Of a stretch of 41,829 nt of DNA, positions 1,947-41,559 are shown piece after piece. Each line of letters starts with the position of its first letter. Positions within the stretch are counted from its first letter, which is position 1. Under the pieces are notes generated by a model. It was not told where the DNA came from, made no database searches, and was given only the letters and a program-made list of their open reading frames with translations. The translations under genes were made by a program, and so were the position numbers. Origin of the DNA: a virus; the IMG/VR virus record IMGVR_UViG_3300005470_000008, positions 1 through 41,829 of that record; one strand, written 5' to 3'.

Positions 1947-2543
1947 ATGGCAAAAAATCCAATAAAATCAAGTGATTACAAAGTATTAAAAACTAAGTTA
2001 TCACTTGATTTTAAAAACAAAAAGATAACTATAAAAAAATATGACAAACTAAATAAAATATTTACATTTCTATTTTATAGTGGAGCAAGGATAAGCGAAG
2101 TGTTACGACTAAAGGGGATGGATATATCCTACCTTATAGAAAACAAAGAACTAAGACTACTTACACCCAAAACAAAAAAATATAAAGATGGTGGTTTTAG
2201 AGATATACCTTTTACAGATACAGCTATAGAGGATATAGCAGATACGTTTAAAGACTGCATTAAACACCAAGAGGGCTACTGTTTATGCCCTCATACAAAC
2301 AGATCAAAGATGTTAAATCTAAACACAGTAGTTAAAGAGATCACATCATACCTAAACGACACGTTTGGAAAGGGTAAGTTTACATCTCATAGCTTTAGAG
2401 CTGGAATCATTACAGAGATGATACTAGATCATGAAGTAAACTCAAAAGTGGTACAAAGCTTCATAGGTCATAAAAATGAAGCCACCACCATGATATATGT
2501 GAAACCAACAAAAACAGATATCAGAAACGCACTTATAAGGTAG
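1947..2543 (+). CDS. Short tyrosine recombinase (catalytic domain only)
   Basis: The full catalytic set is visible: Arg48 in SGARISEVLRL, Lys near 75-77 in TPKTKK, His148/Arg151 in HSFRAG, His175 in IGHKNEATT and the nucleophile Tyr184 in MIYVKP. At 198 residues it has almost no N-terminal core-binding domain, the size class of FimB/FimE invertases and small plasmid resolvases rather than a phage integrase of about 370 residues. It lies three genes upstream of parA in the same direction, which fits resolution of circular dimers. DNA inversion or integron-like roles cannot be excluded. A second, full-length integrase is at 21463-22587. Confidence 0.85.
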   Translation: MAKNPIKSSDYKVLKTKLSLDFKNKKITIKKYDKLNKIFTFLFYSGARISEVLRLKGMDISYLIENKELRLLTPKTKKYKDGGFRDIPFTDTAIEDIADTFKDCIKHQEGYCLCPHTNRSKMLNLNTVVKEITSYLNDTFGKGKFTSHSFRAGIITEMILDHEVNSKVVQSFIGHKNEATTMIYVKPTKTDIRNALIR

Positions 2544-3792: not shown

Positions 3793-4434
3793 ATGATATA
3801 CACTATAGCACACACAAAAGGTGGAGTGGGTAAGTCCACACTAACATGGAACATCATAACAGCACTACAAAAAGAGGGTAAAGATTTTATATGTATAGAT
3901 CTTGATCACCAACGCACTATTTACAACATAAACCAATACATAAGAGAAGATAACAAGATGGAAGTATACACAGCAGATGATACAACGACACTAAGCAAAC
4001 TACTAGAAAACAACAGCGACAAAACCATCATTATTGATACTGGTGGAAATGGAGATGAGCTAAACAAAAGAGCGATATATGCAGCAGATAAGATCATTAC
4101 GCCAATAGGGAGCGATAGCATAACCGAAGCGATAGGATTTAAAAAATTTGAAGCGATACTGCATGAGCTAAAAACACCACCTATATATATAGCTTTTTGT
4201 AATATATTTCATGGTACTAACAAATTTGATGATATCTTAGAGGTGGTTAGAAGTTACCCAAAAACCAATATTTTAAATACAGTCATAAGGACAAGAACAA
4301 ACTATAAAAAAAGTATGGGTACTGGATTAGGAGTAGTAGAACTACCAAAAAGTAAAAACAAAAAACAACAGTTAAGTTTAGATAAATCTATAAAAGAGAT
4401 AGGGTCTATATTAAAAGAACTAGAGATAAACTAA
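3793..4434 (+). CDS. parA: ParA-family partition ATPase
   Basis: A 213-residue ParA/MinD-type ATPase. It starts almost directly with the deviant Walker A box KGGVGKST (residues 9-16, with signature Lys9). The A' motif is CIDLDHQ (34-40) and the Walker B is TIIIDTGG (78-85). It has no N-terminal helix-turn-helix, so it is the short form that depends on ParB for DNA specificity. ParA polymerises or forms gradients on the nucleoid and moves ParB-bound plasmid copies to the daughter cells. parB follows 14 nt downstream. A partition system in a phage genome points to maintenance as a plasmid prophage, as in P1 and N15. Confidence 0.93.
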   Translation: MIYTIAHTKGGVGKSTLTWNIITALQKEGKDFICIDLDHQRTIYNINQYIREDNKMEVYTADDTTTLSKLLENNSDKTIIIDTGGNGDELNKRAIYAADKIITPIGSDSITEAIGFKKFEAILHELKTPPIYIAFCNIFHGTNKFDDILEVVRSYPKTNILNTVIRTRTNYKKSMGTGLGVVELPKSKNKKQQLSLDKSIKEIGSILKELEIN

Positions 4435-4448
4435 GATAGGATAAAAAT

Positions 4449-5234
4449 ATGAAAAAGTTTAACATAGCAGCTATAAATGACATAGTTGAAACCACCACGA
4501 CCAACAACACCACGACCCAAGTAAAAATAAGTGAATTAAAACCAAGTCCATATCAGCCAAGACTAAAAGAGGAAGTAAGGGATCTTGCACTAAGCATAAA
4601 AGAAAATGGACTTTTACAACCCATCACTATAAACCAAGACAATATTATAGTAGCTGGTCATAGAAGATACTACGCACATATAGAGCTAGGGCTAGAGTTT
4701 ATAGCTGCAAATACTATATTTGCAGATGATAAAAAGCTACAAACACTAGCACTAATAGAAAACATCCAAAGAGAGCAGCTGCACCCTATAGAGTTGGCAC
4801 TAAGCTTTGATGATGCACTAAAAAATGGACTTTTTAAAAGTGCAAAAGAGTTAGCACAAAGTATAAGCAAAACAGAAAGTTATATAGCAAAAACAAGGAA
4901 CTTACTAAAACTACCAAACGATATTATAGTAGATATAAAACTAAATAAAACAAAAATAAGTATAGAAACCATATCACTACTTTTAAAGTTTGAGGAAGAT
5001 CAACTAAGAGATATCTTTGATAGATATACAAAGGGTGAGTTAAATAGAAAAGATATCAAAGATATTTTAGATGAAAAAAACAAAAAACAAACCCAAAAAA
5101 ACAACATTAAAGTGAGTTCAAAATCTATAAATGCCGTTTTCAAAACAGATAAACTAACCCAAGATGAAAAGATAGATTTAGAGCTAGAGCTAAAAGAGTT
5201 GGTAGAAAAATATGAAAAGAAAGTTAAAACTTAA
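4449..5234 (+). CDS. parB: ParB/Spo0J-type centromere-binding protein
   Basis: A 261-residue protein with the ParB/Srx fold at about 25-110. It has the opening SELKPSPYQPR, the CTP-binding box AGHRRYYA (69-76) and ENIQREQLHPIE (104-115). A helix-turn-helix for parS DNA follows at about 130-155 (SAKELAQSISKTESYIAKT), and a charged C-terminal tail would dimerise. Poly-Thr residues 15-24 form a linker near the N-terminus. It is co-transcribed with parA. Known family members bind a palindromic parS and spread as CTP-dependent clamps. The dispersed palindrome AATTTCTCATGAGAAATT elsewhere in the window is a candidate target. The last 23 nt overlap the next gene. Confidence 0.93.
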   Translation: MKKFNIAAINDIVETTTTNNTTTQVKISELKPSPYQPRLKEEVRDLALSIKENGLLQPITINQDNIIVAGHRRYYAHIELGLEFIAANTIFADDKKLQTLALIENIQREQLHPIELALSFDDALKNGLFKSAKELAQSISKTESYIAKTRNLLKLPNDIIVDIKLNKTKISIETISLLLKFEEDQLRDIFDRYTKGELNRKDIKDILDEKNKKQTQKNNIKVSSKSINAVFKTDKLTQDEKIDLELELKELVEKYEKKVKT

Positions 5235-6209: not shown

Positions 6210-6725
6210 ATGTTAAAAACAATAGTAAAAGGGTGTGAGCCAACAAAAGGCTCAAAGTATAGTGCGTGTATAGATTTATATGCAAGTGAAGATGTTGTTA
6301 TTGGTGCAGGTGAAACTGTTTTAGTAGGACTAGGTGTTGTAATTGACCCAATCAAACTTAATGCGATAGCAGATGACCACATTAATGGTGTAGACGACTT
6401 TATGGAGTCACACCAACTAAACCTACACATAAGAAGCTCAATGAGTGCAAAACACAAACTTATTATTGCAAATGGTACTGGCATTATTGATTTAGATTAC
6501 CCTGATGAGATTAAGATTTGTTTGCATAATCCAATAGATAAAAACTACATAGATGATATTCTAGCAAAAAATAAAAATAGTAAATATTATGGTCAAGTAG
6601 TTATTCAAAAAGGGCAACCAATAGCACAGATAAGTCTAGTAGAGCATAAATCATATTTGTTTGACGTAGAAAGTAAAGATGAAAGAACTGGTGGGTTTGG
6701 AAGTACAGATGAGCATAAATCCTAA
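6210..6725 (+). CDS. dut: dUTP diphosphatase (dUTPase)
   Basis: A trimeric dUTPase of 171 residues that hydrolyses dUTP to dUMP and pyrophosphate, keeping uracil out of phage DNA and supplying dUMP for dTTP. All five motifs are present: I, SACIDLYA (18-25); II, RSSMS (75-79); III, NGTGIIDLDYPDEI (88-101), with the uracil-pocket Asp-Leu-Asp-Tyr; IV, KGQPIAQ (134-140); V, RTGGFGST (159-166). An insertion of about 25 residues lies between motifs I and II. The C-terminal arm containing motif V overlaps the start of the next gene. AT-rich phages commonly carry this enzyme. Confidence 0.92.
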   Translation: MLKTIVKGCEPTKGSKYSACIDLYASEDVVIGAGETVLVGLGVVIDPIKLNAIADDHINGVDDFMESHQLNLHIRSSMSAKHKLIIANGTGIIDLDYPDEIKICLHNPIDKNYIDDILAKNKNSKYYGQVVIQKGQPIAQISLVEHKSYLFDVESKDERTGGFGSTDEHKS

Positions 6726-21462: not shown

Positions 21463-22587
21463 CTATTGGAAATCTTGGTGTGTCAAATATGTGCCATATT
21501 TTTTGATATTATTTAACCTTATGTTTTCATCTAGCTTTATAAATTTTGCATATACACTTAGGGTTGTTTTTAGATTTGCATGACCTAAAGTTTTTGATAC
21601 CCACAGCAGTTCAGCACCACTACTTATCATCACAGATGCAAAGGTGTGGCGAAGATTGTAAAGTGTACCATTTAGTTTTAGTTTTCTACTTATATTTAAA
21701 AATGTTTTACTTATGGTGGTATAGTCTCTAAATCTTTCATTTTTACTATTTAAGAATATATTGGATTGATTGTATTTATTGGTTAAATCTTTTTGTGATC
21801 TTAGGATCTTTTCAGCTAAAGGTAGCATATCTATTACTCTTACTGATGACTCATTTTTAGTGTTACCTACTATCCCTTGTGGCTTTGCTGCTTTGTTTAT
21901 ACTTATAGTTTTATTTTCAAAATCTATATCACTCCATAGTAAAGCTACCATCTCACTAGGTCGCATACCAGTAGCGTACAGAAATTGGATCACATTTTTT
22001 ATATACCCATCTGATATATCTACTAAAGATGCTATATCTTCTTTAGTAAAAGCATTTACATTTTTTGTGTATTCAGCTTCATAATCATCTCTATTTTTAG
22101 TTAGATGTTTCACTTTTAAAACTGGATTTGAGTCTATAACTTCATCTAGTACAGCTTTATCTAATATCATCTTTAGTTTTGTTCTATACATTCTAACTGT
22201 AGCAAGTGAGTAGTTACTTATAAGTAAAGATTGCCACTTTTCTATATCTATAGGTTTTATATCTTTTACAAGTTTATCTTTGAAATAGTTTTTAATATGT
22301 TTCTCATAAGAGTATCTTGTAGCTTTGTATACATTTGTAGATACGCTATATCTATAGCTATCAAAAAATATTTCAGCGTATTTCTCTAGTGTATTAAGAT
22401 TGGTAGTATCTTCCAACTTAAATGTACCAGTTGCTATAGCTACTTCCATTTGAGGTATAAGTGTTTTTTCTACTATTTTTATATTTGAGGGGGTGTATTT
22501 TAACTTAGTGCTTTTTCTTTTTCTTTTACCATCTATAGTAAAATCTATATATATTATATCTGTTTTTGGGTGTCTATAGTATCTCAT
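21463..22587 (-). CDS. int: Full-length tyrosine integrase
   Basis: A 374-residue site-specific recombinase that would integrate or excise the phage at an att site. An N-terminal beta domain (1-45, arm-type DNA binding) is followed by a helical core-binding domain (65-165) and the catalytic domain. The catalytic residues are Arg209 (ATGMRPSE), Lys244 (GNTKNESS), Arg313 in YNLRHTFAS, His336 (LGHANLKTT) and the nucleophile Tyr346. The first His of the HxxR box is replaced by Tyr, a common change in phage integrases. It lies on the - strand between two + strand virion blocks, away from the repressor, which is not the usual prophage-end position. Confidence 0.92.
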   Translation of the reverse strand: MRYYRHPKTDIIYIDFTIDGKRKRKSTKLKYTPSNIKIVEKTLIPQMEVAIATGTFKLEDTTNLNTLEKYAEIFFDSYRYSVSTNVYKATRYSYEKHIKNYFKDKLVKDIKPIDIEKWQSLLISNYSLATVRMYRTKLKMILDKAVLDEVIDSNPVLKVKHLTKNRDDYEAEYTKNVNAFTKEDIASLVDISDGYIKNVIQFLYATGMRPSEMVALLWSDIDFENKTISINKAAKPQGIVGNTKNESSVRVIDMLPLAEKILRSQKDLTNKYNQSNIFLNSKNERFRDYTTISKTFLNISRKLKLNGTLYNLRHTFASVMISSGAELLWVSKTLGHANLKTTLSVYAKFIKLDENIRLNNIKKYGTYLTHQDFQ

Positions 22588-23512: not shown

Positions 23513-23740
23513 ATGGCTAAAAGAAGAATAATTAAAAATGTTGATGCACCTATGGATGAAGATAGAAAGTGGAGATGTGAGAGTGATCTTAGAACTTTAA
23601 AAGATGTTTATGAGATATTAAATGATAAGCAAAGAATGGCAGATGTAAAAAAAGAGATAGCGAATCAAAAAACAGTTTTAGATGCAGTTGAAAAGATAGA
23701 TACAGAGTATCTTGAAAATATTGGATTTAAAAAAGCATAA
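23513..23740 (+). CDS. Small conserved-type phage protein upstream of terminase
   Basis: A 75-residue basic protein. The centre (WRCESDLRTLKDVYEILNDKQRM) resembles, from memory, small proteins of the W-x(3)-DxRTL-x(5)-I-x(2)-D type found near packaging genes in podophages. Its C-terminus (EYLENIGFKKA) repeats that of the preceding acidic protein. Its TAA stop overlaps the first bases of an 18-bp palindrome. The function is unknown. Confidence 0.6.
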   Translation: MAKRRIIKNVDAPMDEDRKWRCESDLRTLKDVYEILNDKQRMADVKKEIANQKTVLDAVEKIDTEYLENIGFKKA

Positions 23741-23756
23741 TTTCTCATGAGAAATT
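23739..23756. promoter_or_regulatory. 18-bp palindrome AATTTCTCATGAGAAATT, copy 1
   Basis: A perfect 18-bp palindrome that fills the gap between the stop of the small gene and the terminase start at 23759. Identical copies occur at 35972 and 41542, and a 14-bp core copy at 31309. It is a candidate ParB or repressor site. With a CATG loop it could also form a weak 7-bp hairpin. Confidence 0.7.
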
Positions 23757-31240: not shown

Positions 31241-34200
31241 TATACCTGATGGGTGGGAGATTATCCCTCAAGAAGATGAACAACCAAATATACCTGATGG
31301 GTGGGAAATTTCTCATGAGAAAGATAGGTATGGTGCTACTAGTTGGGGAGAAGTAAACAAACCAATTATCAAAGATATAACAGATGAAACACTAGATGAT
31401 AGAAGTTTTATAGAGCAAGTAAAAGATGGTGCTATAGATAACACACTTATACCTATGGCTACGGCTGTTCAAGATGCTGTAAATATAGTATCACCAATAG
31501 GTGAGGTTGAACTACTTGGGGAAAACTACAACAACCCTATAACTGGTATGAAAGGTGATCAATCACTTGTAGAGTATGCACAAGAGAATAGTGATCTACC
31601 ACTAAACGCTTACAACAAACTAAATAAAATAGCAAAAACACAATATGCACTAATAGGTGATGAGAAACAAGGGCTTGAAACATATCAACAAAATCTAGCA
31701 GATATAGTTGTAAATGATATGGGCTTTGATGATGTTCAAGTAGATGAAGATGGAAAATATTATGCTGTAAAAGGTGATACAGAGGTTGAGTTAAATAAAG
31801 ATGGATGGAAAGAGATACTATCTGATGTTTATGGAGACAAGCTTGAGGTGGCTGGTTCTATGCTTGGTGCAACTAAAGGTTATCAGTATGGTAGCAAATT
31901 TGGTAAAAAAGGTGCTGCAATAGGTACTGCACTTGGTAGTGCTGGTGGGGCTATGGTGGGTACTGTTGGTGATATGGTTGATAGTATAGTTGAGACTGGT
32001 GAAAATTTAACTTTAAAGCAGATGGGAAATGAAGTATTAAAATCTGGTGCTTTGGATGCTGCTGCAACTGGTGTAGTTGCTGCTGTTGTAAATACACCAG
32101 CAGCCTTAAAAGGGGTAAAAAACTATATAAGCGATACTAGTGAAAATATAGTAAACAACAATGCACAAAAATATATAAAAGAGGATCTAAATGTAGATCA
32201 AACTACATCACAAGATGTAGAAAATATAGCTAAATCTTTTGGTGGGAAAGAGGATCAAACACTTACAAAACTAGCAGACCAACAAGATACTGGGGCGATC
32301 TTACAAGATAACTTCCACACAAGCTTAGAGCAAGTGAACACATATCTTGATGATATGGATACATTTTCAAAAAACACTTATAATAAACTAGGGGTAAAAG
32401 AGATAGATGATGATATCATAGCTACTACAGATGAGAGGATAACTGGAAATATCTCAAACAATATAAATGACCTAGAGAACCACTACAAAGAGCAATACAA
32501 TCAAACTAGAAATGATATCCTATCTATAGTTGGCGATACACCAATACAAGCTAATAGTAAAACACTTAATACTACAAAAAAACTACTAAATGCACTATCT
32601 AAACCACAAAACGTAAAAGGGGAAACACTATCAAATGGAGTACCACTAACAGAGTTTCAGAAAGATTACTCAAATCTTGTAGAGACTATAAACAGAAACT
32701 TCAAACAAGAAGAGGATATCTTAGATGAAGCTGGGAACAAAGTAGGGGTGCAAATTGTTGATAGTGATGGGTACAAGCTAAGTAAACTTATGGATGTTCA
32801 AAAAGAGTACAATCAGTTTTTTTATAAATATAAAGATCAATATATCCCTAAACAGCAAGAGCAGCTATCAACTATAAAAGATGCTATATATGATGATATG
32901 AAAAACTACATATATAAAAAGTTTGGTGGAGATGATAAAAGTGCAAAAGAGGTTATATCTAAGTGGGAGAGTGTAAATAGTGACTATGGTCTTTGGAAAG
33001 CAGATAAAGGAAACTTCAAAGAGATAGATAAGATACTAAAAAGTGATATAGATATCACAACTTTAGCAAACGATATGATAACTAAAACTGGAAAGATAGA
33101 TAAAAACCATATAGATTTTTTAGGTACAGTTGCTAAACATCTTGAAAAAGTAGAACCTCAAAAACTTGATGAGCTTTATGGTGGAGTTATAAACAATCTA
33201 CTAAATAAATCATCTATAAAAGCACCTATCAACGGACAAAAAAGGAGAATAATAGACTTTTCAGAGTTTATTATAAACTACGATAAACTACAAAAACAAT
33301 CTTTAAACAAAGTGTTTAGTGGTACAAAAAAAGGTAGAGAGATAGTAGATACTCTACATGATCTAAGGAAAATTGCAGACTACGAGGACTATATCCAACA
33401 AAATCTACTAAAAAGAGGGAACAACCTAACCGAAGCTGTAAAAGTAGCAACTGAACATAAACAGTCGTTTTTATTTGGGGTGGAGTATTTTTTTAGAAGA
33501 ACTTTAGTGGGGTGGTTATCTGATAAACTATTTAGAAGTGAAGCTTATAAAACATTTATAAATAGACTAGCAAAAAACAGAAGATATGGGAAACTTGAGA
33601 TTGATAAGGCTGTAAAATTTACACAAAACAAGATGAAAGATAAATCAAGTAAATTTACAAAAGAGGATAAAGAGTGGTTTAAGAGTATTGTTAAAGATGC
33701 ACAAGAGTATGAAAAGATGGTTTTGGAGCAACAAAAACAAGTGCTAAAAGAGACACAAAAAGCTCAAACTAAACAAGAGCAAGAGATGATCATGCAAAAG
33801 CATATAAAAAATATGCAAGAGACAATGAAGCAAAAAGAGAGTGAGATATTTGCTAAAGGTCTACCAGCACCACAAAGAAACCTAAATGATGGCTTATCAA
33901 ATGAGTATTATAACCATAAAACAAACTATGAAAATAAACTTATACAAGATGATATAAACACAAACTATACACCAACACCAAATGATATAAGAAAACAAAA
34001 CCTACCAACAAAAGAGCAGCTAGATAGTGTAAATATCCCAGCACAAAAGTTAAAATTAAACAAAAGTGCAAAAGAGATAGAGGATGCTTTAAGTAGATAT
34101 GAAAATAAATCAAACAAAATGGTTATGACCATTAAGGGTGAAGCTATAACTAAAACAGACTTTGATAAGGTGCAAAGATTTAATGAGATAAGAAATTATA

Positions 34201-35971: not shown

Positions 35972-35989
35972 AATTTCTCATGAGAAATT
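35972..35989. promoter_or_regulatory. 18-bp palindrome AATTTCTCATGAGAAATT, copy 3
   Basis: A full 18-bp copy exactly between the stops of the convergent + strand small terminase and the - strand operon. Here it could also serve as a bidirectional terminator, because short T-runs lie on both sides. Confidence 0.7.
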
Positions 35990-36985: not shown

Positions 36986-37519
36986 CTACATATAAAGTGA
37001 AGCTTCACTAGCCAGTTCCTCTTGGCTCATTTGTGATGGTGAGCTATCACTATAGTCACCTTGATACTCAACTGGTGGCACATATCCACCCATACTATTA
37101 CCTTGTGATGATACTCCACCTTTTGGTGGTTGGTAGATCACATCATATAGCCAGTTTATATCTTCGGCTTTCTCGTTTGGTAGTGGTTTTGCTTTAAATA
37201 CAGTTACATACATCTTACCACCATGCACTAGTGGGTTTTCTATATTTCCACTAAAATACTCCGTATTCCCATCTTTTGATTTTTTTCTCCATAAGCCACC
37301 AACTTTTGTACCTCTAAACTTTTCACCTTTTCTTGAAAAGTTGTACCATAGGTTATAATCAGGTTCATTTTGATTTTTTTTATTGTTGTTTGGGTGAACG
37401 CTAAATGTTGAACTTTGCATCATAGGTGGTCTTAATATCATCTCTAACCACTCTTGTTTTGTTTCAACTCCATCTTTTTGTACCAATCTACTGTTTTGTA
37501 CTATTACACCGATATTCAT
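36986..37519 (-). CDS. SSB-like / DUF736-like single-strand binding protein
   Basis: A 177-residue protein. Residues 55-125 (NLWYNFSRKGEKFRGTKVGG, then LWRKKSKDGNTEYFSGNIENP and KMYVTVFKAKPLP) follow the strand order of DUF736-type OB-fold proteins. The C-terminal 40 residues are Gly/Pro/Ser-rich and acidic (DYSDSSPSQMSQEELASEA), as in SSB tails that recruit partners. It lies directly downstream of the helicase, which supports coating of single-stranded DNA at the fork. The assignment is by pattern. Confidence 0.55.
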   Translation of the reverse strand: MNIGVIVQNSRLVQKDGVETKQEWLEMILRPPMMQSSTFSVHPNNNKKNQNEPDYNLWYNFSRKGEKFRGTKVGGLWRKKSKDGNTEYFSGNIENPLVHGGKMYVTVFKAKPLPNEKAEDINWLYDVIYQPPKGGVSSQGNSMGGYVPPVEYQGDYSDSSPSQMSQEELASEASLYM

Positions 37520-37546: not shown

Positions 37547-38875
37547 TTATTGATAGTCATATGGCATATCCACATCTATCATAGTTTGTTCATTTTCCCA
37601 ATCTGGATCATCTTCATATTGTGTTACAACTGGCTGTATGCTATTACCCCCTTTATTTATATTTGGATTGTCTGTATCATGCTCATGTATTATCTTAAAT
37701 GAGTGTGTATCTGGATCAAATCTAACATCTACTTTTCTCCTTTTAAAATTTTGTTTATTTTTTGCTAGTAGTATAGTCCTAGTCTCACTATCTTTGTGTT
37801 TTAAAAAGTGAAACCACACACCACACTCATGGTCTGCATCTATACACCCTTTTACACTTACCTCTTCAGCATCGTGGTCTGATTTTGATGTTTGTACTAC
37901 CATAGCTATGATAAGATCGTGTTTTTGACAAAGTAATCCTATCCTTGAGAATACATTTGCTAGTAGTTCTGCTTTTGTTGCATTTTTAAACCCAGCGTTT
38001 GAAACTCTTAGTTGAGAATCTATGAATATAAACTCAACACCTTTTTTTACCATCTTTTTTATCTGTCTTTCAAGATCATTTATATCTGTTGTTTCATGAT
38101 CTATATAAACATTTTGAGATATCGCTACTCTTCTTTTATTGTCTTTATGTGGGTATTTTTCGTGTAGTTTTTTGATATATTGTCTAGCTCCAAACTCTAA
38201 AGAGAAAAAGCCACACTTCACCCCATCTGCTGCCATATTTTCCATGATAGTTGTAGCAAAGTATGTTTTACCAGTCTCTTTTTTACCACTTATAAAGACA
38301 AACTGTCCTTGTTCTATACCACCATCTAGTGCTGTTGCTGCATCTGCTACCATAAGTCCTGTTGGTATCTTTTTTAAAGGTGGTAGGTTTTCGTAATACA
38401 CTTCCATATCGTGTACTGTATTTAATGATTTTCCACCAGTATCGTGATCAAGGTTGTCTATCTTTTTTGCTAAATCCTCTAGCATAATGATAGAGTCTTT
38501 ACCATCTTGGTGTTGTATTTTTAGTTCATTTGCATAAGATACTAAGGTTCTACGCCTATAGTTTTCTATGATCTCTTTTGCATAATGTTCTACATTTGAT
38601 GCACCATTTGCACTTAATACCTCAATAATTGAGCTTTCATTTGCTATAGATTTATCTACATTTTTTAGTACAAAATCCTCATCTACGGGATGATCTTTTT
38701 TGTATAACTCTATCATCACTCTATATATTTCAGCATATGCCCGTAGGTAAAACATATCTGCTTTTAGTATTGGCTCTATAGTCTCTAAAACTTCTGAATC
38801 AAACAGTATCGTTGCTAATACTGCTTTCTCTATGTTTGCTTGATATTGGTTTGAATTTACTGTGTTATTAGTCAT
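37547..38875 (-). CDS. dnaB: Replicative DNA helicase, DnaB-like
   Basis: A 442-residue hexameric helicase. A DnaB N-terminal domain (10-140; IEKAVLATILFDSEVLETI ... KADMFYLRAYAEIYRVM) is followed by a RecA-type motor with Walker A GKKETGKTYFA (197-207), SLEFGARQ (225-232; the usual helicase box is SLEM) and Walker B FIFIDSQ (282-288). It would be loaded at the origin by the initiator encoded upstream. Good ribosome site AAAGGAGATAAAA. Confidence 0.88.
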   Translation of the reverse strand: MTNNTVNSNQYQANIEKAVLATILFDSEVLETIEPILKADMFYLRAYAEIYRVMIELYKKDHPVDEDFVLKNVDKSIANESSIIEVLSANGASNVEHYAKEIIENYRRRTLVSYANELKIQHQDGKDSIIMLEDLAKKIDNLDHDTGGKSLNTVHDMEVYYENLPPLKKIPTGLMVADAATALDGGIEQGQFVFISGKKETGKTYFATTIMENMAADGVKCGFFSLEFGARQYIKKLHEKYPHKDNKRRVAISQNVYIDHETTDINDLERQIKKMVKKGVEFIFIDSQLRVSNAGFKNATKAELLANVFSRIGLLCQKHDLIIAMVVQTSKSDHDAEEVSVKGCIDADHECGVWFHFLKHKDSETRTILLAKNKQNFKRRKVDVRFDPDTHSFKIIHEHDTDNPNINKGGNSIQPVVTQYEDDPDWENEQTMIDVDMPYDYQ

Positions 38876-38972: not shown

Positions 38973-39201
38973 TTGATATCTCTAATCTATCAAAATATTG
39001 TTTTGCTGTTTTTTGATCTTCAAAAAATTTTACTGTTTGTTTTGGGAACTCATACCCTACAAGTTTTTTTGAGTATCTAAAAACTACAAAATTTGAAGTT
39101 ACCATATCAACGGCAAGTATATGTGTAGGTGAACTTTCAAGAAGTCCAAACCCCATACCTATAGCAAAATCATACAACTCTTGCTTTTGATCTAAAGTCA
39201 T
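38965..39201 (-). CDS. Hypothetical small protein of the replication operon
   Basis: A 78-residue protein that overlaps the previous gene by ATGA and the following membrane peptide by 8 nt. Likely helix-strand-strand-helix (FAIGMGFGLLESSPTHILAVD ... VKFFEDQKTAKQYFDRL). No family is assigned. Confidence 0.6.
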   Translation of the reverse strand: MTLDQKQELYDFAIGMGFGLLESSPTHILAVDMVTSNFVVFRYSKKLVGYEFPKQTVKFFEDQKTAKQYFDRLEISNG

Positions 39202-39533
39202 GCTATCTTTACCCCCATATTTTTTAAAACACTAGATGCTATATCTGATTGTGTTTGTTGTCTTTTTGGTTTAAAACCATTTGCTTTTAGTTCCCTTATG
39301 GCTCTTGGGATAAACACCATACGATCTTCACCATCTATGTAAAAATGTGTATCTTGGATAAACACCCCACTTGCTAGATACTTTTGCATAGTAGGTTGAG
39401 ATATGTTAAGATACTTTCTAACAGCAGCTCTAGTTGTCAAGTCACCCTCTATGATCTCTTTTAACTCTTGGTTCTCTTCTCTTAGTTTGTTTAACTCTTT
39501 GATTATAAAATCTAACTTTTGTTCTAAATACAT
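39198..39533 (-). CDS. Small helix-turn-helix protein
   Basis: A 111-residue protein with an N-terminal coiled coil (LDFIIKELNKLREENQELKE) and a helix-turn-helix (TTRAAVRKYLNISQPTMQKYL, about 33-53, shown split) followed by FYIDGEDRMVFIPRAI. This is the layout of small phage DNA-binding proteins of the excisionase or HTH_17 type. It may control the operon or the integrase. Confidence 0.65.
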   Translation of the reverse strand: MYLEQKLDFIIKELNKLREENQELKEIIEGDLTTRAAVRKYLNISQPTMQKYLASGVFIQDTHFYIDGEDRMVFIPRAIRELKANGFKPKRQQTQSDIASSVLKNMGVKIA

Positions 39534-39542
39534 ATTTTACCC

Positions 39543-40577
39543 CTATAGTCCGTAAAGATGTTCCATCATAATTTGAGCTTTTAGATCAAGTGATCTACTA
39601 TGATGCCTACTTCCAATATCAGCACCACCCATCATCACAAATACCTCATACTCTTGATCTGTAAACAGATGCTTAAAATCTTCTGTTGCCGCCCCATTTG
39701 CTTCAAGTACCTCTTGGATTGAGCATTGAAGTTTCATAAACTGTTGATGCTGCTCTTTAGAAAAACCATCTCTTACTTGCTGGTCGTATGATGATAGTTT
39801 TTGAACAGCCGCCCCATTTGCTTGGCTAGTGGTATCTTGTGGGTTGTTAAGCAATACACACTTTTGTGGTAAGTTGTTGATATCTAGGTATTGAGCATAT
39901 TTAGTTAAGAAGTTTTTTGGCTTCATTGGTGAATATGCAAAATGGTTGGTGCATTTGTAGTTTTTAAGTGCTGCAAAGATATCTTGAGCATTTTGGTTGT
40001 AGTGATCAAAGTTTTCTTTTAGCTTTAGTCTGAACTCTTTGTAATCACTAGCTTGAGTATGTTCTGTTTTTCTAGGATAATTACCCTCAAATTCAAAAAC
40101 AAAATCATCAAAAGAAAAAGTACCCTCACTCCCACTATCTTTAGAGGTATTTCTTTTCTTTTTATTTATATATAGAGTCTCTTTTTCTAATGTATCTGAT
40201 GAGATACTTGTAGGTATCTGATGAGATACTTCTGATGTATCTGATGAGATACTTGATGATGTATCTGATGAGATACTTGTAGGTATCTGATGAGATACAT
40301 TAGATGACTCATTTTCTATAATAACAGTAATAAAAGATGATCTATTTTTTTTGATAATTCTACCCTCTTGAACTAATTTTTTTATTGTATTTGTATAAAC
40401 TAATTTATGTATCTTACAATTTTCAATAAACTCATCTCTTGAGATGTTTGCACTAAGCTCTTGATATTGGATCGTTTTTGAGAAAATATAGGTCAATACT
40501 CTTAGTTCATTTGGTTTATTGATATATTCATTTATCCATTTTGGGTACATAATATAATTGTATTTTGGTAGTGCCAT
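39543..40577 (-). CDS. Replication initiator with internal origin
   Basis: A 344-residue protein with an N-terminal winged-helix domain (1-110; NELRVLTYIFSKTIQYQEL ... FIENCKIHKLVYTNTIKKLV). A low-complexity linker repeating SISSDT (93-130) lies exactly where the five DNA iterons are, and a C-terminal domain follows (145-344). This is the plan of lambda O-type initiators, whose origin repeats lie inside the gene. Downstream are a helicase and an SSB-like protein. No ribosome site precedes ATG 40577. Instead a short upstream frame ends with TAATG on this start, which suggests coupling. Confidence 0.75.
   Translation of the reverse strand: MALPKYNYIMYPKWINEYINKPNELRVLTYIFSKTIQYQELSANISRDEFIENCKIHKLVYTNTIKKLVQEGRIIKKNRSSFITVIIENESSNVSHQIPTSISSDTSSSISSDTSEVSHQIPTSISSDTLEKETLYINKKKRNTSKDSGSEGTFSFDDFVFEFEGNYPRKTEHTQASDYKEFRLKLKENFDHYNQNAQDIFAALKNYKCTNHFAYSPMKPKNFLTKYAQYLDINNLPQKCVLLNNPQDTTSQANGAAVQKLSSYDQQVRDGFSKEQHQQFMKLQCSIQEVLEANGAATEDFKHLFTDQEYEVFVMMGGADIGSRHHSRSLDLKAQIMMEHLYGL
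40192..40298. repeat. Five 16-bp iterons, candidate replication origin
   Basis: Five exact copies of GTATCTGATGAGATAC start at 40192, 40214, 40237, 40261 and 40283, spaced 22-24 bp, or about two helical turns. Each has 6-bp inverted arms (GTATCT/AGATAC). An AT-rich stretch (40150-40190) lies on one side as a melting region. They lie in the initiator gene, as in lambda ori. Confidence 0.88.
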
Positions 40578-40708
40578 TATATTTTTACCATTTTGTATTT
40601 TGAAAAAAAAGTTATTGTAAAGTTGGTCATATTCTTCCCTTTTTTTGTTTTCAATATTAAGCCCACGAAAAGCCCATGAGTAGGAAAGCCGACCAAAGCA
40701 AAACTCAT
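40577..40708 (-). CDS. Possible 43-residue leader ORF upstream of the initiator
   Basis: ATG at 40708 opens a frame (MSFALVGFPTHGLFVGLILK and so on) that ends in TAATG, sharing one base with the initiator start. No ribosome site is visible, and the frame runs through the inverted repeat at 40653-40720. It would be a leader controlling initiator synthesis if translated. Confidence 0.3.
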   Translation of the reverse strand: MSFALVGFPTHGLFVGLILKTKKGKNMTNFTITFFSKYKMVKI

Positions 40709-40720
40709 GGACTTAATATT
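40653..40720 (-). ncRNA. Structured leader of the replication operon
   Basis: Outer arms AATATTAAG/CTTAATATT and inner arms CCATGAGT/ACTCATGG can pair around a loop in the roughly 200-nt leader of the - strand transcript, with a 12-nt bulge on one side. The G/C-rich core stands out from its surroundings. It may be a copy-control RNA structure, an attenuator or a protein-binding site. Confidence 0.4.
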
Positions 40721-40733
40721 AAAAACTGTTTGT

Positions 40734-40762
40734 TTGACATAGTAAAATACATTTGATATACT
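40734..40762 (+). promoter_or_regulatory. Rightward promoter for the repressor
   Basis: TTGACA (40734-40739), a 17-bp spacer and TATACT (40757-40762), close to the sigma-70 consensus, point to the repressor gene. A second pair, TTGTTA (40762) and TATTAT (40785) with 17 bp between, is a weaker alternative. Confidence 0.7.
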
Positions 40763-40785
40763 TGTTATATATTAAATGTAAGCGT

Positions 40786-40814
40786 ATTATAGTTTAAAAA
40801 AATGAACTTGTCAA
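40786..40814 (-). promoter_or_regulatory. Leftward promoter for the replication operon
   Basis: On the - strand TTGACA (40814-40809), a 17-bp spacer and TATAAT (40791-40786) form an exact consensus promoter. Its start point would lie near 40779, about 200 nt before the initiator, and it faces the rightward promoter. Confidence 0.8.
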
Positions 40815-40873: not shown

Positions 40874-41536
40874 ATGAACCAAACAAGTGGAGAAAGGCTG
40901 AAAATTGCACTAAAAGAGCTAAAATTAGCATATAAAGATTTAGATGAGTTGGTAGGTATACCAGAACAAAAAGTAAAAAACTTAGCTACTGGAATAAAAA
41001 TAATGAGTGCAGATATAGCTATATCCCTTGAGGAAAAACTTGGTATAAGTAGTGCTTGGCTTTTATTAAACAAAGGTCAGATGTTTGATAAACAAGCTAC
41101 TGCCTTACAAAAAGCATATGGTGATGATGATATCTCAAGACTTACAGTTCCATACTATACTGATATAAAAGCAAGTGCTGGGCATGGATATATAGCAGAT
41201 GAAGATAGTGAAGTTGATATAATAAATCTACCTAAAGATCTAGTTGGTAAACACTACAATCTTGGGAGAATTGAAGCTATTAAAGTGCATGGGGATAGTA
41301 TGACTCCAACTATAAAAGAGAATGATGTGGTATTTATCTGTAAAAAAGTAAATGATATAGTAGACAATAAAATATATATAATAAACTGGAATGGTGAAAT
41401 ATATATAAAAAGGATATTTAAAAGAAAAGATACATATATCATAAAATCAGATAATCCAATCTACCCACAAGATGAAGTAAAAAAAGATGAGATCACTATA
41501 GTAGGTAGACTCATATACAATATGACAGAACTATAA
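40874..41536 (+). CDS. CI/LexA-like S24 repressor
   Basis: A 220-residue repressor. The N-terminal helix-turn-helix (about 5-65; GERLKIALKELKLAYKDLDE ... AISLEEKLGISSAWLL) is followed by a linker with the likely self-cleavage site Ala102-Gly103 (KASAGHG). The S24 peptidase domain has the catalytic Ser142 (HGDSMTPTI) and Lys179 (YIKRIF). RecA-stimulated self-cleavage after DNA damage would lift repression of the face-to-face leftward promoter. Its ribosome site is AAAAAGGATAAAAT. A dispersed palindrome lies 6 bp after its stop. Confidence 0.9.
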   Translation: MNQTSGERLKIALKELKLAYKDLDELVGIPEQKVKNLATGIKIMSADIAISLEEKLGISSAWLLLNKGQMFDKQATALQKAYGDDDISRLTVPYYTDIKASAGHGYIADEDSEVDIINLPKDLVGKHYNLGRIEAIKVHGDSMTPTIKENDVVFICKKVNDIVDNKIYIINWNGEIYIKRIFKRKDTYIIKSDNPIYPQDEVKKDEITIVGRLIYNMTEL

Positions 41537-41541
41537 AATAC

Positions 41542-41559
41542 AATTTCTCATGAGAAATT
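41542..41559. promoter_or_regulatory. 18-bp palindrome AATTTCTCATGAGAAATT, copy 4
   Basis: A full 18-bp copy, 6 bp after the repressor stop and before the next promoter. Three of four copies lie within 15 bp after a stop codon. Confidence 0.7.

Follow-up and report, generated by a model that had tools for sequence, protein, structure and literature searches.

The window corresponds to an entire IMG/VR virus record (41829 bp) and encodes a terminase, a portal and a capsid protein together with a CI-like repressor, which mark it as a tailed phage. Its replication operon, on the minus strand, comprises an O/gp18-like replication initiator of 344 aa (39543–40577), a small excisionase-like HTH protein (39198–39533; weak match to PHROG 66), a 78-aa ORF, and a DnaB-type replicative helicase (37547–38875; Pfam DnaB, 1.3e-18; PHROG 19, 1.2e-41), the last reading in the same direction as the initiator and lying two small genes further on. 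No relative of the helicase was found in the plasmid collection. In many genomes of the class, homologues of the HTH gene immediately precede an integrase-like gene, and use of this excisionase-like neighbour as a pointer to O genes was dropped because its homologues mark integrases. The minus-strand gene at 36986–37519, which a previous sequence-only reading of this DNA had called SSB-like, matches only DUF736 (Pfam, 7.3e-8) and shows no match to SSB. Elsewhere, positions 6210–6725 encode a dUTPase-like protein (Pfam, 5.2e-11). For the lineage as a whole, only single genes were matched in the phage and plasmid collections.

The initiator matches PHROG 678 (replication initiation, O-like) with E=6.7e-5, its residues 7–75 align with a profile built from nine O-like sequences (hhalign E=2.1e-5, probability 77%), and Pfam Phage_rep_O is hit at E=0.0072, below the cut-off. 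The O-like identity is putative: it comes from distant sequence matches obtained more than once, not from a structural proof. A single-sequence AlphaFold model gave a pLDDT of 32 with no confident residue, and a PDB search found no relative. Neither tblastn nor peptide patterns recovered close relatives of the initiator from the viral, genome, phage and plasmid collections, and no plasmid Rep family was matched among the proteins scanned.

Five exact copies of the 16-bp sequence GTATCTGATGAGATAC begin at 40192, 40214, 40237, 40261 and 40283, with start-to-start spacings of 22, 23, 24 and 22 bp (22, 24, 23 and 22 in gene order), and no further copy is present elsewhere in the 41.8-kb record. 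Each copy consists of perfect 6-bp arms (GTATCT and AGATAC) flanking GATG. The array at 40192–40298, its dyad arms, its spacing and its position within the initiator reading frame are all as previously described. In 60 third-order Markov simulations of the window, the maximum was 2 identical 12-mers within 150 bp, against 5 observed, and no exact iteron pair was found in the viral contigs searched. The iterons span codons 94–130 of the ORF and fall in frames 0, 1, 1, 0 and 1 of the gene. In gene order on the minus strand, iterons 1 (40283–40298) and 4 (40214–40229) are read as VSHQIP, while iterons 2 (40261–40276), 3 (40237–40252) and 5 (40192–40207) are read as SISSDT. The SISSDT linker attributed to the array in the sequence-only reading is therefore encoded by three copies, the other two being read in another frame. 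Identical bases yielding different peptides in two frames indicate that the DNA, not the protein, is constrained; this double reading is the strongest sequence evidence for conservation at the DNA level, and it adds weight to the earlier proposal that the protein has been shaped by a DNA function.

A candidate unwinding element (40140–40191), AT-rich and purine-asymmetric, adjoins the iterons on their gene-3′ side, as in lambda O, and its duplex stability is in the lowest ~5% of the window. Duplex energy over 40140–40199 is −1.06 kcal/mol per step (window mean −1.19, sd 0.067), and the 3′ flank of the iterons is 71% purine. The AT-rich stretch reported beside the repeats is thus present as a weakly paired flank, although the 5′ side (40290–40440) is about equally weak, and the weak stretch is not unique within the gene. 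GC skew, put forward earlier as a check, does turn near 40 kb, but gene direction switches at the same place, so the turn is no independent evidence for an origin.

A sister phage (IMGVR 3300019754_000113, 46.9 kb; locus L039) has TerL (50%), DnaB (49%), ParB (42%), the CI-like repressor and DUF736 in common with the window. Its initiator (L039:1930–3132) contains five sites that resemble GTGTCCAAATGGAAAC; three match it exactly and are spaced 21 bp apart. The N-terminus of this protein has no match to the O profile, and its C-terminus aligns with a profile of the window and G004 proteins (hhalign E=1.6e-6, probability 90%); on the simplest reading, the DNA-binding domain and the iterons would have been exchanged together. 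Homologues with an intact initiator but no repeats had been named earlier as counting against the origin; the single full-length syntenic relative found, this sister, has repeats, of another sequence. Contig G004:C21 preserves the syntenic initiator C-terminus, the HTH gene and the helicase (59% to that of the window), and it is uninformative on repeats because it begins past the linker. From their translations, two sister ORFs in the gap between initiator and helicase (L039 3129–4848) resemble PAPS-reductase-type proteins, and two adjacent ORFs (L039 7706–11079) resemble the large and small subunits of ribonucleotide reductase.

We surveyed genomes of the class with PF04492, which matched 18 of 397. 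Intragenic dyad repeats are present in eight non-lambda O-like genes (L019, L020, L021, L022, L024, L025, L028 and L036), in 2–4 copies placed 17–33 bp apart at about codons 101–152, after the winged helix, and they exceed codon-shuffled controls. The repeats fall in more than one frame in five of the eight genes, three of the eight have two copies only, and each gene's set has its own sequence (for example GTACCGAAAATGGGTAC, GTGCAAAAATTGCAC and TTCGCCACACGAA). The remaining PF04492 matches lack a clear array, and several, such as the GntR-like L032–L034 (judged from sequence), are probably not initiators. No chain of three repeats was found in ~100 ORFs at other prophage loci, the Helicobacter phage initiators L008 and L009 have weak repeat families only, and in SNW-1 none of the tested genes preceding the helicase gave an O-like match. 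Locus L018, on a small contig (G348:C34), carries O gene DNA of phage lambda together with its iterons, within a genome assembly of the class; it is probably laboratory contamination and was left out of the count of relatives. The likeness to lambda O/ori drawn in the sequence-only reading is borne out by the O-like domain, the dyad iterons in the linker, their lambda-like spacing, the purine/AT-rich 3′ flank, the co-directional helicase and the intragenic iterons of relatives. The five repeats are highly likely to be a lambdoid-type intragenic theta origin, the firing of which we infer.

The window also encodes ParA (3793–4434, plus strand; CbiA, 4.6e-13; PHROG 164, 9.6e-31) and ParB (4449–5234, plus strand; ParB_N, 3.8e-15, with HTH_ParB; TIGR00180 over the cut-off). 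ParB has its 42% identical counterpart in the sister and another in genome G004, and its relatives are found on plasmids of Aliarcobacter, Hydrogenimonas and Sulfurimonas, among others. A small Xer-like tyrosine recombinase of 198 aa (1947–2543, plus strand; Phage_integrase, 8.8e-18, catalytic part only), a putative dimer resolvase, likewise has a sister counterpart. The parS-like sequence AATTTCTCATGAGAAATT forms three perfect 18-bp palindromes (41542–41559, 35972–35989 and 23739–23756), and its exact core occurs additionally at 31307 (4 found, 0.11 expected). The first of these lies behind the repressor gene, and in the sister, which carries AATTTCGCATGCGAAATT five times, one copy is found in the same place, directly behind its repressor gene. 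The sister palindrome differs from that of the window by a symmetric change, which suits a dimeric DNA-binding protein, and ParB is the obvious candidate to bind these candidate parS sites. A full-size integrase of 374 aa (21463–22587, minus strand) is encoded between late genes, so the prophage of the window could be integrated; the sister record has the small recombinase only. Virion genes and a partition system thus occur together in the window, alongside an integration module of a kind that phage-plasmids usually, though not by strict requirement, lack. The repeats are intragenic, in contrast to iteron plasmids of the Rep_3/RepA type, in which iterons lie outside the Rep gene. The earlier description of a compact plasmid replicon holds as far as ParA, ParB, the parS-like palindromes and the resolvase-like recombinase are concerned, but with tailed-phage genes beside them "phage-plasmid" describes the window better, and the lineage is probably one of phage-plasmids.

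The presence of ParB raises the question of whether the repeats are themselves a parS array, that is, a centromere bound by the phage ParB and not an initiator-bound origin. The iteron core TCTGATGAGA and the parS-like core TCTCATGAGA differ at a single base, with an overall match of 11/14 (p ~0.005 for random dyads). However, the window has a separate perfect palindrome outside the gene that is symmetrically altered in the sister, the sister's iteron is unlike its own palindrome (8/14), and the eight O-like genes at other loci, found independently of par genes, carry intragenic dyads in the same place. We consider a centromere array improbable, with a slim chance of being correct. It is very improbable that the repeats are a low-complexity linker at the protein level, or a recent neutral tandem duplication, free of DNA function. 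Repeats 1–2 and 4–5 do look like the two halves of a block duplication (94% identity across 48 nt, 69 bp apart) that a Ser/Thr-rich linker would tolerate, and part of the iteron identity may for that reason be recent, but a reading free of DNA function is at odds with identical DNA read in two frames as different peptides, with the 6-bp dyad arms, and with dyad repeats of other sequence in the same place in relatives.

A promoter-like site directed toward the initiator (TTGACA-17-TATAAT; 40786–40814, minus strand) agrees with the consensus at 12/12 positions and has identical hexamers in the sister. It stands face to face with a second site (40734–40762, plus strand; 11/12 consensus; same geometry in the sister) directed toward the CI/LexA-like repressor (40874–41536, plus strand; Peptidase_S24, 1.1e-23; PHROG 4, 3.9e-43). 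Between these promoter-like sites lies a 31-bp dyad, ACATTTGATATACTTGTTATATATTAAATGT (ACATTTGATATA..TATATTAAATGT; 40749–40779), a candidate CI operator. Dyads are typical of operators and the neighboring gene encodes a CI-like repressor, but the near-consensus promoter pair lies ~450 bp from the repeats with its own candidate dyad, and no promoter of comparable quality is found at the iterons, which leaves hardly any probability that the repeats are sites for this repressor or another regulator of replication-operon transcription.

The 5′ leader of the initiator is predicted to form an RNA stem-loop (40647–40726, minus strand), with z=−7.1 on the mRNA strand versus −2.4 on the other strand. 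The sister has two tandem copies (z=−9.5 and −8.5), and all 19 outer pairs are kept across the three elements, five of the 19 covarying through double changes; since the element is carried by two phages only, these represent few independent changes. A leader ORF of 17 codons (40577–40630, minus strand) ends on a stop codon that overlaps the initiator ATG as TAATG in both window and sister. The SD-like AGGGAAG at 40634–40640 is complementary to the loop at 40682–40688, the duplex having a predicted energy of −12.4 kcal/mol in the window (20/1000 shuffles as good) and −16.6 in the sister (1/1000). A coarser fold test of the 220 nt upstream gave z=−5.9 for the sister, a modest −2.4 for the window and −2.1 for L008, and nothing for lambda O and eight other O-like genes. 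The Rfam search gave no match, the stem-loop model matched none of the 397 genomes, and, on the question of an antisense RNA, the other strand beside the stem-loop has no good promoter. The leader stem could also extrude as a DNA cruciform, though G-U pairs on the mRNA strand favor RNA. Together, the stem-loop and the TAATG-coupled leader ORF suggest plasmid-like translational control of the initiator.

In the mechanism we propose for the lambdoid-type origin, dimers of the O-like protein would use the N-terminal winged helix to bind all five dyads and wrap ~110 bp into an O-some, which would melt the adjacent AT-rich stretch. By analogy with the proposal for P22 gp18/gp12, the DnaB-type helicase encoded by the phage would then be delivered to the opened strand by the initiator's C-terminal domain. 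CI, acting at the promoter, and the structured leader with its translationally coupled ORF would both limit initiator output. Combining the putative origin, the candidate centromere and the predicted RNA control, all of which we infer from sequence, we think it highly likely that the repeats are iterons of a lambdoid-type theta origin within the gene of their own initiator, in a phage that is probably plasmid-capable and whose initiator output is limited by CI and the leader. With a putative O-type origin, partition genes of plasmid style and a folded RNA leader together in one phage, a single start site may serve both virus and plasmid states. More tentatively, and as a possibility we do not favor outright, this may be a Campylobacterota phage-plasmid lineage in which lytic growth and plasmid maintenance share a single lambdoid-type intragenic origin, the loop of a conserved stem-loop masks the ribosome-binding site of the coupled leader ORF and so keeps the initiator at plasmid level, and the DNA-binding domain and iterons are swapped as a cassette while the helicase-contacting C-terminus is kept. 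The joint reading would bring phages with Campylobacterota-like hosts into the range of lambda/P22-style origins and suggests how a single replicon could drive both lytic phage growth and low-copy plasmid replication; the same bases read in two frames offer a clean DNA-level signature for sequence searches for such origins.

The window resembles plasmids of the ColIb-P9, IncB and R1 type (see the works cited in PMC10724649) in having a structured leader, a short leader ORF that is coupled to the start codon of the initiator, and a loop able to pair with sequence near that ORF. It differs from them in that its sequence and initiator are unrelated, no antisense RNA was identified, and its complementarity would hide a ribosome-binding site, not expose one. 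With the phage-plasmids N15 and P1 the window shares phage genes, ParA/ParB and several inverted-repeat candidate centromere sites (PMC7205306; PMC11652158); in N15 the inverted repeats are IR1–4 (PMC7205306). It differs from them in its O-like initiator and in the additional presence of an integrase.

The closest parallels in replication are with P22 and L and with lambda. Gene 18 differs in its intragenic repeats between P22 and L, and gp12 is a DnaB-type helicase (PMC8022706). Common to the window and to genes 18–12 of these phages are an O-like initiator gene with internal repeats, a phage-encoded DnaB-type helicase gene after it, and variation of the repeats among relatives (PMC8022706). 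Tblastn gave no match in the phage collection, and compared with P22 and L the window adds the excisionase-like gene and the 78-aa ORF between initiator and helicase, ParA/ParB, and the structured, coupled leader. In lambda (J02459), four iterons with spacings of 20, 24 and 23 bp occupy codons 117–145, where they fall in three frames, and A/G-rich DNA lies 3′ of them. The window iterons are instead identical rather than degenerate and number five, a helicase takes the place of the P loader, and the initiator protein is only remotely related. What the window has in common with lambda O/ori and the Stx phages, the origins of which have been described (PMC7466680), is dyad iterons in the linker codons, 20–24 bp spacing, the use of several frames, and a purine/AT-rich 3′ flank.
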